36,528 nt of DNA from Candidatus Kuenenia stuttgartensis (GTDB lineage Bacteria > Planctomycetota > Phycisphaerae > Sedimentisphaerales > CAMDDF01), in assembly GCA_945890885.1 (NCBI GenBank), contig CAMDDF010000009.1:1-36528 (forward strand). Direction: 5' to 3'. The notes under the pieces were generated by a model. That model had not been told where the DNA came from, did not search any database, and saw only the letters and a program-made list of their open reading frames with translations. The translations under genes and the position numbers were made by a program. Shown here in pieces: positions 27,973 to 35,929 of this stretch (its first letter is position 1; each line of letters opens with the position of its first letter).

Positions 27973-28731
27973 TTATTGTAGTTGGCAGACAGCCTCAGCA
28001 ATTGCCTTGGCGATTTTAATCTGATGGGCAGGGTTGTTGAGCCGTTGGGCTTCCTGTTTGTTGGTAAGATAGCCGCATTCGATAAGTACAGCGGGACTTG
28101 AGTGCTGAATAAGTACCTTAAAATCAGCATTTCTTACGCCACGGGGCTTAAAACCCCAGTTTCTAAATGATGCATTTATTTTCATCGCAGCAGTTCTGCT
28201 CTTTTGTGAGGCACTTCTAGCCACATAAACAGATGGCCCGCAGATGCTGAGATCATGAGGGTTTGCGTCAGTGTGGATGGCAATGAACAGGTCTGGTTTG
28301 TACTTTTGGGCAACAGCTGACCTTTCTTCAAGTTCTAAAAATGTGTCGCTTTTTCGTGTCATGATAACTCTTGCGCCACATTTTGTAAGCTGTTTTTCGA
28401 GCTCGCGGGCTATCACAAGATTGAGATATTTTTCCTGCGCGGAAGAGTAACTAGCTTTGGTTGCACCGGGGTCTTTTCCGCCGTGGCCTGGGTCGATTAC
28501 TATAACTTTACCATCGAGTGAATTATTGGATGATGGACTGGTGTATGTTGATGTTTTTGGTTTTGGTGCTGTCGGCGCAGAATTTTTATACATATTCGGC
28601 GTATAAAGCGGCTTGGTCTCAGCAGCAGGGGCAGTTATCTGGGGGGTATAATCTTGGGGTGCGCCGCAACCAATGATGAACATTGCTGAAGATACGAACA
28701 GGGTACATACTAATCTATAGATATTTGTCAC
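27973..28731 (-). CDS. N-acetylmuramoyl-L-alanine amidase (Amidase_3) lipoprotein
   Basis: 252 residues. A signal peptide with lipobox I-I-G-C (C22) predicts a lipid-anchored envelope protein. A P/T/S-rich linker (25-70) leads to the zinc amidase domain (about 73-250): V-I-D-P-G-H-G-G-K-D-P-G with the first zinc histidine, E-L-E-E-R near 152, A-I-H-T-D-A-N with another zinc histidine, and V-L-I-E-C-G-Y-L-T-N with the catalytic glutamate. It cleaves the amide bond between MurNAc and the stem peptide, for example in cell separation. Start codon is GTG 28731, with GGAG five bases upstream. Confidence 0.93.
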   Translation of the reverse strand: MTNIYRLVCTLFVSSAMFIIGCGAPQDYTPQITAPAAETKPLYTPNMYKNSAPTAPKPKTSTYTSPSSNNSLDGKVIVIDPGHGGKDPGATKASYSSAQEKYLNLVIARELEKQLTKCGARVIMTRKSDTFLELEERSAVAQKYKPDLFIAIHTDANPHDLSICGPSVYVARSASQKSRTAAMKINASFRNWGFKPRGVRNADFKVLIQHSSPAVLIECGYLTNKQEAQRLNNPAHQIKIAKAIAEAVCQLQ

Positions 28732-28830: not shown

Positions 28831-28859
28831 TTGACATTTTTCGAGAGTAAGACTAAATT
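28831..28859 (+). promoter_or_regulatory. sigma-70 promoter of the Rrf2-hcp operon
   Basis: Perfect TTGACA (28831-28836), 17-base spacer, TAAATT (28854-28859). The AT-rich run 28801-28830 could act as an UP element. The -10 hexamer lies within a perfect inverted repeat, so the promoter should be repressible. Confidence 0.8.
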
Positions 28860-28868
28860 GGTCTTACT
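28846..28868 (+). promoter_or_regulatory. operator: perfect 8-bp inverted repeat over the -10 box
   Basis: AGTAAGAC (28846-28853), seven bases, GTCTTACT (28861-28868). The arms are exact reverse complements, and the inner bases are also largely symmetric (GAC-N7-GTC with central AAATT). The position over the -10 and start region and the adjacency to an Rrf2 gene make it the likely site for autoregulation. Confidence 0.75.
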
Positions 28869-28892
28869 TGGATTATGTAAAGGTTTTGTTTG

Positions 28893-29327
28893 ATGAACTT
28901 TATAAAACAAAATAGTGATTACGCATTGAGAATGATTGTTAATCTTGCCCAGGCTTATCAGCGGGACGAAGTTGTTTCTGCTCATAAGCTGGCGGAGGAA
29001 GAAGAGGTATCTCCTCAATTTACAGCCAAGATATTGCAAAAGCTTGCCAAGGCAGACCTTATCGAATCGTTGATGGGACCAACCGGCGGCTATAAATTGA
29101 AAAGGCATCCTGAAGAAATTTCCATGGCGCAGGTTATTGTTGGGATGCAGGGGCCGGTATGCCTCAATAAATGTTCGCCTGGAATCGCAAGCTGTCCGAG
29201 GCAGCCCAGATGTCCGATTTCCAGAATTGTGTGTGAACTTGAAAGTGATATCGTAAAAAAACTATCTAATATAAGCATCAAAGATATAATTGAAAATAAA
29301 GGAAAGGGGTTTAACGATGGGCGATAA
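28893..29327 (+). CDS. Rrf2-family transcriptional regulator, probable Fe-S sensor
   Basis: 144 residues from ATG 28893. A winged helix at about 8-70 (S-D-Y-A-L-R-M-I-V-N-L-A; V-S-P-Q-F-T-A-K-I-L-Q-K-L; G-P-T-G-G-Y-K-L) is typical of Rrf2. Cysteines C90, C94, C101 and C107 cluster after the wing in C-x3-C-x6-C-x5-C, as in IscR/NsrR proteins that hold a [2Fe-2S] or [4Fe-4S] cluster. Heading an operon with hcp, it most resembles the role of NsrR, the nitric-oxide-sensing repressor of hcp in enterobacteria. Likely it binds the inverted repeat 28846-28868 and is released by NO or redox stress. Its end overlaps the cupin gene by 11 bases. Confidence 0.9.
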   Translation: MNFIKQNSDYALRMIVNLAQAYQRDEVVSAHKLAEEEEVSPQFTAKILQKLAKADLIESLMGPTGGYKLKRHPEEISMAQVIVGMQGPVCLNKCSPGIASCPRQPRCPISRIVCELESDIVKKLSNISIKDIIENKGKGFNDGR

Positions 29328-29658
29328 CATTCTAAGTCAATGCTTTGGCAAGGCGGCCGACCTTTTAAGTCTTGTCGATTACGCCGCAGATGCGGTTGTC
29401 AGTAAAACACTGCTCGACAAGCAAACAGGGACAATAACTTTATTTTCATTCGATGCCGGACAGGGATTGAGTACACACAGTGCCCCTTACGATGCCTCGG
29501 TCTATGTGCTTGACGGCAAGGTCGAGATAACGATAAGCGGAAAGGCAAGCGTAGTGTCCGCGGGTGAATTTATTATAATGCCCGCTAACCAGCCGCACGC
29601 ACTTAAAGCGATAGGAAAATTTAAAATGTTGTTAATAATGATACGGGATAAGAAATAA
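29317..29658 (+). CDS. small cupin-domain protein
   Basis: 113 residues from ATG 29317, which follows AAAGGGG; a longer frame to 29290 lacks a ribosome binding site and lies inside the Rrf2 gene. One cupin barrel: F-D-A-G-Q-G-L-S-T-H-S-A-P-Y-D-A, V-Y-V-L-D-G-K-V-E-I, then G-E-F-I-I-M-P-A-N-Q-P-H-A-L. Only two histidines occupy the metal positions. Metal and substrate are unknown. Translationally coupled to the regulator and followed by hcp 21 bases later, it is probably part of the same stress response. Confidence 0.88.
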   Translation: MGDNILSQCFGKAADLLSLVDYAADAVVSKTLLDKQTGTITLFSFDAGQGLSTHSAPYDASVYVLDGKVEITISGKASVVSAGEFIIMPANQPHALKAIGKFKMLLIMIRDKK

Positions 29659-29679: not shown

Positions 29680-31269
29680 ATGTCAATGTACTGTTATCAG
29701 TGTGAGCAAACAGCAGGAGGCAAAGGATGCACAAGAGTTGGCGTTTGCGGCAAAGATGAAACCACCGCAAATTTTCAGGATGCCCTTTTGCAAAAAGCCA
29801 GAGAGATTTCTTTCTATGCCAATCGTGCAAGAAAAGCAGGGTTATTGGATAATGCGATTGACAGATTCGTAGTCGAAGCATTGTTTCTTACCGTAACAAA
29901 CGTAAATTTTGATTCCGCAAGGATTCAGGAATTCATCACCAGAGCCGACGCGATAATTGTAAGGGCAAAAAATATCAGCGGCACAACCGATAAATTCACA
30001 GCGGTCAATATTGGTGATGTTCCGTTTATTGAGGCGCAAAAGAGCAAGCTCGGCGAAGATATTACAAGCTTGCAGGAATTGATAACTTACGGATTGAAAG
30101 GTTCGGCGGCTTATGCGGACCACGCGGCGGTGCTTGGTTTTCAGGACGATAGTATTTATGCGTTCTTTCACGAGGCGTTGGATTTTCTCAACGGCAAAGA
30201 TGCTCTGAATGTTGATAAGCTGGTTGGGATGGCGATGAAGTGCGGCGAAGTGAATTTGAAAGTTATGGAGCTGCTCGATAAAGCAAACACCGAAACTTAC
30301 GGCCATCCAGAGCCGACACAGGTGAAAGTATCGCCTGTCAAGGGCAAATGTATTCTCGTATCAGGACATGACTTGAAAGACCTTTATGAGCTTTTGAGGC
30401 AGACAGAGGGATTGGGTATCAATATTTATACACACGGCGAAATGCTGCCGTGCCTTGCGTATCCCGGTTTGAAGAAGTTCAAACACCTTGTCGGTAATTA
30501 CGGCGGAGCGTGGCAGGATCAGGCGAAAGAGTTTGATGCTTTCCCCGGCCCGATTTTGATGACGACAAATTGCATTCAAAAGCCGAAAGACTCATATAAG
30601 GATAGAATTTTCACAACAGGCCTTGTCGGCTGGGCAGGTGTAAAACATATCAGCAGTAAAGATTTCAAGCCAGTGATAGAAGCGGCGGTAATAGCTAAAG
30701 GCTTTAAGGAAGATGCCCCGACAAAAACCATTATGGTTGGTTTCGGACGCAACGCGGTGATGAGTGTCGCCGGTACAGTCATTGATGCAGTCAAAGCTGG
30801 TAAGATTAAACGGTTCTTCCTTGTCGGCGGATGCGACGGCGCAAAGCCCGGCAGGAATTATTATACCGAGCTGGCAGAGCAGATACCCAACGATTGCGTG
30901 ATAATGACCCTGGCGTGCGGCAAGTATCGTTTTAATAAGCTTGAATTTGGCGACATCGGCGGAATTCCAAGACTGCTTGATATCGGCCAGTGCAATGATG
31001 CGTATTCCGCGATACAAATTGCGGTCGCTCTTGCAGGTGCGTTCAAGTGCGGCGTAAATGATTTGCCGCTGAGCATCGTGCTTAGCTGGTATGAGCAGAA
31101 AGCGGTTTGCATATTGCTGACGCTGCTGTATCTTGGAATCCAGAATATGAGAATCGGGCCTTCTTTGCCGGCGTTTGTTTCTCCAGCGGTTTTGAATGTG
31201 CTTGTTGAAAAGTTTAATCTCAAGCCGGTAACCACCGCCAAGGAAGATTTAGCTGCGATGCTTGCTTGA
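29680..31269 (+). CDS. hcp: hybrid cluster protein (hydroxylamine reductase)
   Basis: 529 residues. N-terminal C5-x2-C8-x8-C17-x5-C23 binds the cubane cluster, with the spacing of the anaerobe type rather than the enterobacterial [2Fe-2S] type. The hybrid cluster ligands are all visible in order: G-H-D-L (His), H-G-E-M (Glu), T-N-C (Cys), G-G-C-D-G, A-C-G-K, I-G-Q-C-N-D and W-Y-E-Q-K-A (Glu, Lys). Hcp reduces NO to nitrous oxide, or hydroxylamine to ammonia, at low oxygen, in the cytoplasm. AAAGG lies upstream of the ATG. No hcr reductase follows; the ferredoxin five positions... downstream at 33653 is the likely electron donor in the same operon. Confidence 0.96.
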   Translation: MSMYCYQCEQTAGGKGCTRVGVCGKDETTANFQDALLQKAREISFYANRARKAGLLDNAIDRFVVEALFLTVTNVNFDSARIQEFITRADAIIVRAKNISGTTDKFTAVNIGDVPFIEAQKSKLGEDITSLQELITYGLKGSAAYADHAAVLGFQDDSIYAFFHEALDFLNGKDALNVDKLVGMAMKCGEVNLKVMELLDKANTETYGHPEPTQVKVSPVKGKCILVSGHDLKDLYELLRQTEGLGINIYTHGEMLPCLAYPGLKKFKHLVGNYGGAWQDQAKEFDAFPGPILMTTNCIQKPKDSYKDRIFTTGLVGWAGVKHISSKDFKPVIEAAVIAKGFKEDAPTKTIMVGFGRNAVMSVAGTVIDAVKAGKIKRFFLVGGCDGAKPGRNYYTELAEQIPNDCVIMTLACGKYRFNKLEFGDIGGIPRLLDIGQCNDAYSAIQIAVALAGAFKCGVNDLPLSIVLSWYEQKAVCILLTLLYLGIQNMRIGPSLPAFVSPAVLNVLVEKFNLKPVTTAKEDLAAMLA

Positions 31270-31305: not shown

Positions 31306-32340
31306 ATGATTACTGAAATAGAAAATTTGTGGCAGCAGGGCAAATTCCTGAAGACAGCTTTTGATGAATATAAAAAGTGTATTGAAGCTGTCTTCGGGCA
31401 TGCCCGTGCGATACTCCAGACCCCACAGGGCATACCGGCAGAATTTCATGTTGAACTTGGCGGCATATCGAACGAATTTTACTCGATAAAGAGGAATTTG
31501 TTTTCGACGCTTTTTCAATCGGTTTATCATCTGATGAAAATTGAAGAACCCCGGCGGCTTTTTTACGGCAAGCTGAATCACCTCTTCAGAATATGGGTAA
31601 CCTCTGCTGACAATCTTCTCGACAATGAGGATAAAATTGTTGTGCCGATGAAAATCGCAGGCTCATCGCGGGTGATGCGTCAGGTCATTTCAATTATGCT
31701 TGCCGATAGAATTTTGAAAAATATTACCGATGAAGCGGTTTTAAACGGTGTTATAACTGAGTACGAATCATCGTTGATAGTGCAGAAATCTTTGCAAATT
31801 CTTTTGCCAAGCGCAGCTGAAGAGGCCTCCGAGGAAGGTGGCATAACTTGCAGGCCTGACGCGGAATACATTTTAAATACGATACACCGGCTCAAAACAG
31901 GTCTTTTGTTTCATATACCTTTTTTAGGGCCTGACAATATCGAGTACGGACTTGATGTAAAAATAGTTGATTCGTGCAGGCAGGGTCTGATGAATTTTGG
32001 ATTGGGCTGCCAGATAATTGATGATATAAGGGATATTGCTAAGGACTATCTGGAGATGAGGCATAATTATGTATTGTCCGGCATATACCAAAGCTATCCA
32101 GTGTATGCAACAAAGCTTGATGAGCTTGAGCCTGCGATGGAAACTTCGTCTAATTTATTTCATTTATTTCCGGAAGTTACATATCCTGCGGCCCAAAAGG
32201 CTATGGACTTACTTGTCGATGGTCTTTCGTCTCTTGGAAATGCAGGGCTTGGAATAGATAAAAAAACGGAAAGGCTTTTCGGCCTTGGAATATTTGAGAC
32301 TTTGGGTGTAGGAGGAATAACTCGATGCCTGAGTGTCTGA
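31306..32340 (+). CDS. class I isoprenoid synthase-like protein
   Basis: 344 residues, all-helical pattern. Two aspartate-rich motifs on opposite halves, D102-N-L-L-D106-N-E and D239-D-I-R-D243, plus K-T-G at 197-199, match the trans-prenyltransferase fold that binds prenyl diphosphate through Mg ions. The first motif is D-x-x-x-D rather than D-D-x-x-D, and the surrounding sequence is divergent from ordinary GGPP/octaprenyl synthases, so product and chain length are not predictable; it may be a terpene cyclase-like enzyme or another head-to-head type. It starts 36 bases after hcp and overlaps the methyltransferase by 16 bases, so both probably act in one pathway. Confidence 0.75.
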   Translation: MITEIENLWQQGKFLKTAFDEYKKCIEAVFGHARAILQTPQGIPAEFHVELGGISNEFYSIKRNLFSTLFQSVYHLMKIEEPRRLFYGKLNHLFRIWVTSADNLLDNEDKIVVPMKIAGSSRVMRQVISIMLADRILKNITDEAVLNGVITEYESSLIVQKSLQILLPSAAEEASEEGGITCRPDAEYILNTIHRLKTGLLFHIPFLGPDNIEYGLDVKIVDSCRQGLMNFGLGCQIIDDIRDIAKDYLEMRHNYVLSGIYQSYPVYATKLDELEPAMETSSNLFHLFPEVTYPAAQKAMDLLVDGLSSLGNAGLGIDKKTERLFGLGIFETLGVGGITRCLSV

Positions 32341-32999
32341 AAAAATATGATTCGGCTCCCACAAAAGGAAGAACGCTTGACTACGCAGCTGGCGTTTACG
32401 ACGTGCTAAGTCCGCTGATGACTTTTGGCCAGGAAAAGAGAATCGGTAAAATAGCGGTGGAACTTTTAGATTTGAAAGGTTGCGAAAAAATTATCGATAT
32501 CGGCTGCGGCACAGGTTCGTTGACAATCGATATGGCTGAAAAACTTTCGCCCGCAAAAGGCGGACAAATTATCGGCATCGATGCGGCTGCAAAAATGATA
32601 GCCCTGGCTCAAAAAAAAGCCTACGGCATTGGGCAGGCTAAATTTTGTATATCTGCCGCAGAACATCTCGAATATTCTGATGAAACATTTGACTGTGCAA
32701 TTTCGACGTTCTTTTTTCATCATATCGACTTTGAGCTTAAATTGCAGGCGTTGAATGAAATCTGGCGAACATTGAAAAATAATGGCAAGGTTGTTATTGT
32801 CGATGTTGATACGCCGACGAATATTTTCGGTAAAATCTGTGCTTGGAGCGGATACGTATTGTTCCAGCAGCAGGAGATAAAAGAAAACATCGAAGGCAAA
32901 TTAAGAGATGCGATTGTCCAAAGCAGATTTGGGCAGTTTGAATTGATTTCATCGCACATGGGATATGTTTCAATATTTGCATTGCAGAAAAAGGCTTGA
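32325..32999 (+). CDS. class I SAM-dependent methyltransferase (MenG/UbiE-like)
   Basis: 224 residues. SAM-binding motif I is I-I-D-I-G-C-G-T-G-S-L at about 56-66, followed by G-I-D-A-A-A-K-M motif II and F-F-F-H-H-I motif near 128-134. The general plan (Y-D-V-L-S-P near the N-terminus and F-D-C-A-I-S) resembles quinone C-methyltransferases and related small-molecule enzymes. GGAGG precedes ATG 32325, inside the end of the prenyl-synthase-like gene. A prenylated compound is a reasonable substrate by context; this is inference. Confidence 0.85.
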   Translation: MPECLKKYDSAPTKGRTLDYAAGVYDVLSPLMTFGQEKRIGKIAVELLDLKGCEKIIDIGCGTGSLTIDMAEKLSPAKGGQIIGIDAAAKMIALAQKKAYGIGQAKFCISAAEHLEYSDETFDCAISTFFFHHIDFELKLQALNEIWRTLKNNGKVVIVDVDTPTNIFGKICAWSGYVLFQQQEIKENIEGKLRDAIVQSRFGQFELISSHMGYVSIFALQKKA

Positions 33000-33652: not shown

Positions 33653-34369
33653 ATGGCTATGCGAAATATAATAAAAATTGACGAAGAACGATGCAACGGC
33701 TGCGGCAAATGCGCCAAAGCCTGCGCGGAAGGTGCGATAAAAATCATTCACGGCAAAGCAAGGCTGGTAAGCGAAGTATATTGCGACGGCCTCGGCGCAT
33801 GTATAGGGACTTGTCCGGTCAATGCGATAAAGATTGTCCAGCAGGAAGCGGCAGAATTTGATGAAGAGGCGACAAAAAAACATCTGGAAGAAATAAAAGC
33901 AAAGCCTGCGCCGTCATCTGGTGATTTTATGTGTCCGGGTATGATGGCCAAAAAATTAAAGCCCAAAGAATCTAAAGCAGGTGAAATGATTGACGGCAGC
34001 TCACAGCTTGGACAATGGCCCGTACAGTTGAAACTTGTGTCAGCCAATGCTCCGTATTTTAAGAATGCCGATTTAATGCTTGTTGCCGATTGCGTAGCCT
34101 TTGCGATGGGCGATTTTCATCAGAAGCTTTTAAAAGGTAAAGCAATCGCAATTGCCTGCCCCAAGCTCGATGATACCGGCAGCTACGTCGCGAAAATTGC
34201 CGATATTATAAAGAGCAATAATCTCAAGAGCATTACTGCGGTGCGGATGGAAGTGCCGTGCTGTATGGGTATTGTCATTATGGCACAGAAAGCTCTGGAA
34301 ATTGCAGGGGCGGATTTGCCCTTAAAAGAAATGACCATCTCGCTTGATGGCAGAATAATTGAGGAATAA
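33653..34369 (+). CDS. 4Fe-4S ferredoxin-type protein with seven-cysteine double motif
   Basis: 238 residues. A bicluster ferredoxin domain at the N-terminus has C14-x2-C17-x2-C20-x3-C24 and C44-x5-C50-x3-C54-P. The second motif lacks the middle cysteine (L47), so that site can be ligated only as [3Fe-4S] or needs another donor. The remainder (about 100-238) is an unrecognised domain with M-C-P-G-M, V-A-D-C-V, A-C-P-K-L-D and P-C-C-M-G cysteine sites. Such proteins are frequently encoded near hcp in anaerobes and are likely electron donors to it. Cytoplasmic. Starts 16 bases after the exported protein. Confidence 0.9.
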   Translation: MAMRNIIKIDEERCNGCGKCAKACAEGAIKIIHGKARLVSEVYCDGLGACIGTCPVNAIKIVQQEAAEFDEEATKKHLEEIKAKPAPSSGDFMCPGMMAKKLKPKESKAGEMIDGSSQLGQWPVQLKLVSANAPYFKNADLMLVADCVAFAMGDFHQKLLKGKAIAIACPKLDDTGSYVAKIADIIKSNNLKSITAVRMEVPCCMGIVIMAQKALEIAGADLPLKEMTISLDGRIIEE

Positions 34370-34409
34370 ATTTATTGACCTTTTTCCGACTATGTTCGTA
34401 TGATAAGTG

Positions 34410-35456
34410 ATGAATATGGAATTTGTAAAAAATATATTAGTTGATTTCTGGGCGACAATGGGCGAGATGTCCCCATATTTGCTCTTTGGTTTTCTCGTTG
34501 CTGGCGTGTTGTCGGTTTTTATTTCTCCCGGAATCGTAGAACGGCATCTTGGCGGCAGAGGTTTTTGGCCTGTGTTTAAAGCTTCGATGTTTGGTGTGCC
34601 GTTGCCGTTGTGTTCTTGCGGAGTTATTCCGGTAGCGATGGGTTTGCGGAAGCACAAAGCAAGTAAAGCAGCGACGCTTTCCTTTTTGCTTTCCACGCCG
34701 CAGACTGGCGTTGATAGTATCCTTGTAACATATAGTTTGCTTGGGCCGGTGTTTGCGGTTTTTCGGCCAGTGGTAGCACTGATAACAGGTCTGGTCGGTG
34801 GCGCTGGCGTTGAACTTTTTGCGCACGATGCAATTGCTGGCGGGTCGAATGAGCAGTGTGCCGATGAGTGCTGCAACAATAATAATGAAAAACCTAAAAC
34901 TAACTGGTTGGTTAGAATTTTCCGATTTGGTTTTTACACGCTTCCTGCCGACATTGGCAAGCCTATGCTTATTGGTGTTTTTGTAGCGGCGATTCTGGCG
35001 GCGTTTGTGCCGGACGATTTTTTCGCTGATAAACTGGGGCAGGGGTTTGGGGCTATGTTAGTGATGATGCTTATTGGAATACCGCTTTATGTTTGTGCCA
35101 CAGCATCAGTGCCTATCGCTGCGGTGCTTTTGGCTAAGGGGCTAACGCCAGGAGCAGTGATGGTTTTTCTGATGACGGGTCCTGCGACAAATGCGGTTGC
35201 ATTTGCGACTATATGGAAAACGCTCGGCGGCAGAGTCGCGATAATTTATATCACAACCGTCATCGTTTGTGCGCTTAGTGCAGGCGTTTTCCTTGATTAT
35301 ATTATGGCATACGATTTTACCGCCCAGATGGCGCACCACCACCATGAAATGATGCCTGCGGTTGTTAAAAATATTTCCGCAGTTGTGCTGCTGCTTGTTT
35401 TAGTCTGGCCGATAATAAAAAATTTCAAGAAAAAAAGTCATCACAACAATAGCTAA
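34410..35456 (+). CDS. SO_0444-type permease (Cu/Zn efflux family)
   Basis: 348 residues from ATG 34410 (GTG 34407 or ATG 34416 are alternatives, and no strong ribosome binding site decides). About nine membrane helices with L-P-L-C-S-C-G-V-I-P in the first half and Y-V-C-A-T-A-S-V-P-I-A in the second, the duplicated motif of the permease family that includes SO_0444 metal efflux and ArsP-like proteins. A cytoplasmic loop with C-A-D-E-C-C and a H-H-H-H-E cluster near the C-terminus are candidate metal ligands. It is the last gene of the hcp operon and may export copper or zinc, or an organo-metal species. Substrate not proven. Confidence 0.85.
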   Translation: MNMEFVKNILVDFWATMGEMSPYLLFGFLVAGVLSVFISPGIVERHLGGRGFWPVFKASMFGVPLPLCSCGVIPVAMGLRKHKASKAATLSFLLSTPQTGVDSILVTYSLLGPVFAVFRPVVALITGLVGGAGVELFAHDAIAGGSNEQCADECCNNNNEKPKTNWLVRIFRFGFYTLPADIGKPMLIGVFVAAILAAFVPDDFFADKLGQGFGAMLVMMLIGIPLYVCATASVPIAAVLLAKGLTPGAVMVFLMTGPATNAVAFATIWKTLGGRVAIIYITTVIVCALSAGVFLDYIMAYDFTAQMAHHHHEMMPAVVKNISAVVLLLVLVWPIIKNFKKKSHHNNS

Positions 35457-35902: not shown

Positions 35903-35929
35903 AGGCACTGATAGACCAAATCAGTGCCT
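35903..35929 (-). terminator. strong hairpin between tRNA-Ser and tRNA-Glu
   Basis: AGGCACTGAT (35903-35912), a seven-base loop and ATCAGTGCCT (35920-35929) form a perfect 10-bp stem just after tRNA-Ser on the minus strand. Only a short GTTT follows, so it may be a weak terminator or a processing site for a shared tRNA transcript. Confidence 0.5.

Follow-up and report, generated by a model that had tools for sequence, protein, structure and literature searches.

A comparative study of 2005 named HcpR as the regulator of hcp in strict anaerobes and NsrR as that in facultative anaerobes (PMC1274295). HcpR is a member of the CRP/FNR family with the motifs TGTGA-N6-TCACA, TTGAC-N4-GTCAA and GTAAC-N4-GTTAC (PMC1274295). 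NsrR, described from S. coelicolor and enterobacteria, has the Rrf2 fold, three cysteines, an N-terminal aspartate with an arginine partner and a recognition-helix lysine; its operator is 23 bp long, and hcp is among its targets in enterobacteria (PMC5411485, PMC9338935, PMC1274295). In the S. coelicolor protein the aspartate is the fourth cluster ligand and the arginine its salt-bridge partner (PMC5411485). For IscR of E. coli, the type-1 motif is ATASYYGACTRWWWYAGTCRRSTAT (PMC3899308); Glu43 of this protein contacts bases 7 and 8, and the E43A change permits binding of apo-IscR to type-1 sites (PMC5411485). A limited search of the literature returned no earlier account of an Rrf2 operator at hcp in Planctomycetes.

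The locus considered here lies in a stretch of 36,528 nucleotides, analysed at its full length and called the window, in which genes for an Rrf2-family regulator, a small cupin protein and a hybrid cluster protein follow the promoter TTGACA-N17-TAAATT (Table 1). The -10 element falls inside an inverted repeat at 28846-28868, which reads AGTAAGACTAAATTGGTCTTACT and can be written as AGTAAGAC-TAAATTG-GTCTTACT, with two perfect 8-base arms and 7 bases between them; taken as 11-1-11, it pairs at 10 of 11 positions, with a single T/G break. The repeat ends 24 bp ahead of the operon, whose first ATG is at 28893, and the transcription start is predicted near 28866, at the 3' end of the repeat. The initial annotation had described a perfect inverted repeat covering the -10 of a TTGACA promoter, and this description holds: the arms are exact, 28854-28859 lies within the repeat and the spacer is 17 nt. 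Taken alone, the repeat lacks significance and is no evidence of function: shuffles give a mean of 7.3 perfect inverted repeats of 8 bp with loops of 0-12, and the window has eight.

Table 1. Coordinates of the promoter, the putative operator and the genes of the hcp operon
Feature	Position	Strand	Basis or remark
-35 element TTGACA	28831..28836	+	sequence; geometry kept in relatives
Putative operator, AGTAAGAC-N7-GTCTTACT	28846..28868	+	sequence, conservation
Conserved 19-bp core TARGACTAWWTTAGTCYTA of putative operator	28848-28866	+	
-10 element TAAATT, within putative operator	28854..28859	+	sequence; conserved geometry
AAAGG, likely ribosome-binding site of Rrf2 gene	28879..28883	+	sequence
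Rrf2-family regulator, 144 aa, NsrR-like ligand set D9, C94, C101, C107	28893..29327	+	
Small cupin protein	29317..29658	+	start overlaps Rrf2 gene end
hcp, hybrid cluster protein (hydroxylamine reductase family)	29680..31269	+	PF03063 561 bits, NF003658 802 bits

The adjacent regulator gave only an Rrf2 match in Pfam, and none to the CRP/FNR family; like HcpR, which regulates hcp in anaerobes, it would be a dedicated local regulator of hcp, but its protein family and its motif are unrelated to those of HcpR. The Rrf2 winged-helix domain scored above its cut-offs (PF02082, 108 bits against 30; TIGR00738, 104.8 against 73.3). Five cysteines are present in the C-terminal part (C90, C94, C101, C107 and C114), of which C94, C101 and C107 are conserved among orthologues and C90 and C114 are not; the initial annotation had counted four clustered cysteines. 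Among 61 orthologues the invariant residues include M1, D9, Y10, R13, K46, Q49, C94, C101 and C107. Through alignment with E. coli NsrR and IscR, it was found that D9, R13, K46 and the three cysteines correspond to Asp8, Arg12, Lys45 and the three cysteines of NsrR, K46 being aligned with its recognition-helix lysine, whereas the cysteine spacing of X6-X5 is unlike that of NsrR. Where IscR has Glu43, Gln44 and His107, other residues stand in the regulator: Cys or Ala at the first place, Lys at the second and, in most cases, Arg or Ser at the third.

No NsrR or IscR profile model scored the window's protein above its cut-off. The NsrR model NF008240, which was built on enterobacterial-type NsrR, gave 49.3 bits against a cut-off of 182, and its best E-value among the 61 members was 1.1e-15, far below the cut-off. 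Curated IscR models reached 75.1 bits against 207.55. Models of IscR and of the SUF regulator outscore NsrR, each under its own cut-off, and the best E-values of the 61 members agree. In structural comparison, an AlphaFold model of the regulator (mean pLDDT 88.9) matched RsrR, IscR, CymR and NsrR structures in Foldseek, with RsrR the closest, and the TM-score against the NsrR-DNA complex 7b0c was 0.78 both ways. RsrR also has an acidic residue near the same N-terminal place; a difference lies in the three invariant cysteines of the present clade.

The putative operator shares its 23-bp length with that of NsrR, but departs at 9 of the 14 defined positions from the consensus gATGyAT-N5-ATrCATc (PMC1274295). 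Its core resembles that of the IscR type-1 site: GACTRWWWYAGTC is found at the same symmetry with 12 of 13 core positions, while outside the core one of 12 positions matches. Upstream of iscR itself, the E. coli sequence is GACTAAATCAGTC. The two bases beside the core are YY in IscR type-1 sites and AR in the operator described here; if these are equated with IscR bases 7 and 8, protein and operator would differ from IscR at matching places. The Rrf2 fold and the predicted autorepression over the promoter are common to both systems, whereas the target here is hcp and not isc. As read from sequence, the system would be an NsrR-like hcp autorepressor with an operator core of IscR type-1 form.

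Conservation was evaluated for the same order, Sedimentisphaerales-type Planctomycetota, with 78 genomes. Of these, 76 had a match to the regulator and 65 an orthologue, called by our own cut at a best E-value of 5e-20 or lower, leaving 13 without. The initial annotation had stated that absence of the motif from homologous operons would refute its proposal. Upstream regions of homologous regulators were compared (n=68, some from paralogues), and TARGACTAWWTTAGTCYTA was found at up to four mismatches in 64, so that the proposal withstood this check. Across these 64 loci, T1, G4, T7, T12 and A19 of the 19-mer are invariant, and in 60 a hexamer with at least four matches to TTGACA stands 16-18 nt before the central TAWWTT; over all 64, the best-scoring spacer is 17 in 46 loci, 16 in 14 and 18 in 4. 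In a set of 80 named loci, which overlaps the 68, the site was within four mismatches in 75, compared with 16 of 1600 shuffled upstream regions (1%); for the named genomes a single-sequence search gave nothing, and an alignment search recovered the loci.

The site also follows the regulator. Of the 65 genomes that have an orthologue, 46 carry a site with at most one mismatch, whereas the 13 genomes that lack one carry no such site (Fisher p = 1.6e-6, with no correction for relatedness). A sample of 392 genomes of the phylum contained such a site in just 10, eight of which belong to this order. Changes in both arms with the dyad retained were seen at L052 (TGAGACTATTATAGTCTCA) and L214 (TAGGGTCAAATCAGCCCTA), and the dyad is retained in part at L013 (TAAGGCTATGTTAACCCTA). 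At L008 and L009, whose regulators rank among the closest orthologues, the corresponding place holds only a degenerate site, which at L008 reads TCGGACCAATAAACTCTCA, with six mismatches by eye. One genome (G045) encodes three regulator paralogues, each behind its own palindrome, those of L013 and L052 given above and TAAGACTATATTAGTCTTA at L064; the third has an additional promoter-like site 417 bp upstream. Regulator and operator (0, 1 and 2 mismatches) also occur at L207, L225 and L233, labelled Aminicenantes, Spirochaetales and Omnitrophota, which are either mislabelled MAGs or cases of gene transfer.

Whole-genome searches usually returned one site per genome, and a wide regulon was rejected on this ground. 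In the genome of the window (2.14 Mb, 152 contigs), the motif at up to three mismatches gives this single match, and the weaker sites inspected are poor matches inside reading frames. The two hits in other parts of the phylum, at L128 and L129, overlap or adjoin GC-rich reading frames, have no -35 and are probably due to chance. One genome (G003) has a second site, TAAGACTAAAATAGTCTAA with TTGACT-N17-TAAAAT, before a flavodiiron protein gene that sits just upstream of its rrf2-hcp operon. This flavodiiron protein may reduce O2 besides NO, and the second site hints at removal of NO or O2 as a common task, short of a general regulon. In a control with about 50 upstream regions of flavodiiron genes from the same order, the site was found in G003 alone, the others requiring 5-9 mismatches; the flavodiiron protein was therefore discarded as a general target, the site being absent from all these others, that of the window's own genome included. 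No copy of the operator was found before the second Rrf2 gene of the own genome (L074:3659-4153). In its product the recognition helix retains a Glu-Gln of IscR type, and the gene precedes genes that resemble, by eye, cysteine synthase and other genes of cysteine or NAD synthesis.

The palindrome is very probably the operator of the Rrf2 repressor encoded 24 bp downstream, in agreement with the probable Rrf2 operator proposed initially, since the site is conserved in place at orthologous operons and tracks the presence of a regulator that is an Rrf2 protein with a predicted Fe-S ligand set. The likely explanation for the locus, in our judgement, is an autoregulated NsrR-like Fe-S repressor that would obstruct RNA polymerase as long as its cluster has not reacted, NO being the most likely reactant. 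As a dimer with the cluster bound, the regulator would occupy 28846-28868, over the -10 and the start site, and so exclude RNA polymerase from the rrf2-cupin-hcp promoter; the placement of the operator over the -10 in this geometry argues for repression by promoter occlusion. Because the regulator gene is the first of the operon, control would be autogenous, with the regulator repressing its own gene as well. The cluster would be held by three cysteines of one subunit and Asp9 of the other, as in S. coelicolor NsrR. Reaction of this cluster, most likely with nitric oxide, would release the dimer from the DNA and allow Hcp to be made. Nitric oxide is the most plausible signal because of the NsrR ligand set and of Hcp as the product, and the lifting of repression by the cluster reaction is proposed by analogy with NsrR and IscR. 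Binding, direction of control, cluster type and the NO signal are what we infer in this scheme.

The main rival retains the same operator and repressor and takes iron, O2, oxidants or general cluster damage as the signal, as for IscR or RsrR, with hcp answering cluster damage or redox stress and not NO as such. It draws on the IscR type-1-like operator core and on the higher scores of the IscR and SUF-regulator models, which, together with the degenerate sites at L008 and L009 and with the Cys/Ala at the Glu43 position, also weigh against the explanation preferred above; the only extra target, the flavodiiron protein, would suit O2 as well as NO. We consider it unlikely, however, given that the three IscR residues are lost while the Asp, Arg and Lys set of NsrR is invariant, and that the conserved target is hcp and not isc or suf genes. 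Far less probable is a regulator that binds the site and yet stays bound, or activates, when its cluster changes, the site then being no simple repression site. The Cys/Ala at the Glu43 position, compared with the E43A form of apo-IscR, suggests that the apo regulator might still bind the operator, but the -10 is covered in nearly all loci, where activation by a simple dimer is hardly possible.

An origin of the repeat by chance, or its action as a hairpin-type RNA element, with the conserved part being merely the promoter, would agree with the equal frequency of such repeats in the window and in shuffles. This reading is extremely improbable and was rejected on conservation: the arms outside the -10 are conserved across the related loci (64 of 68), with symmetric double changes in some, and most of a hairpin would stay untranscribed because the predicted start is near the end of the repeat.

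Under the preferred reading, an autoregulated NsrR-like repressor, an order of mostly uncultured Planctomycetota would use a local Rrf2 protein with its own operator for hcp, within a set of genes that counter stress of the nitric-oxide type. There is roughly an even chance that these proteins form a distinct Rrf2 sensor lineage in Sedimentisphaerales-type Planctomycetota, with NsrR cluster ligands and an IscR type-1 core, serving one autoregulated hcp-cupin operon and with DNA specificity shifted at the bases read by Glu43. Over 60 natural pairs of protein and operator, among them paralogues with altered yet symmetric sites, furnish a data set for how the Rrf2 recognition helix reads DNA, and the operator motif can be used in annotating these genomes.

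Several neighbouring features were also recorded. The small cupin gene is found in most related loci. On the other side of the promoter, the divergent gene at 27973-28731 (-) resembles, by eye, an N-acetylmuramoyl-L-alanine amidase gene. Behind hcp, 31306-32999 encodes a 344-aa protein and then a UbiE-like methyltransferase; the former gave no match in Pfam or NCBIfam, and its DxxxD-like motifs recall, by eye, isoprenoid synthases. Both are likewise found downstream of hcp at L042, with about 72% identity, where the regulators are merely 38% identical. At 33653-35456 a 4Fe-4S ferredoxin-like protein adjoins an SO_0444-type Cu/Zn efflux permease (NF033936, over the cut-off), and near the end of the window, 35903-35929 holds a perfect inverted repeat of 9-10 bp, AGGCACTGAT...ATCAGTGCCT, which exceeds that of the hcp promoter in length.
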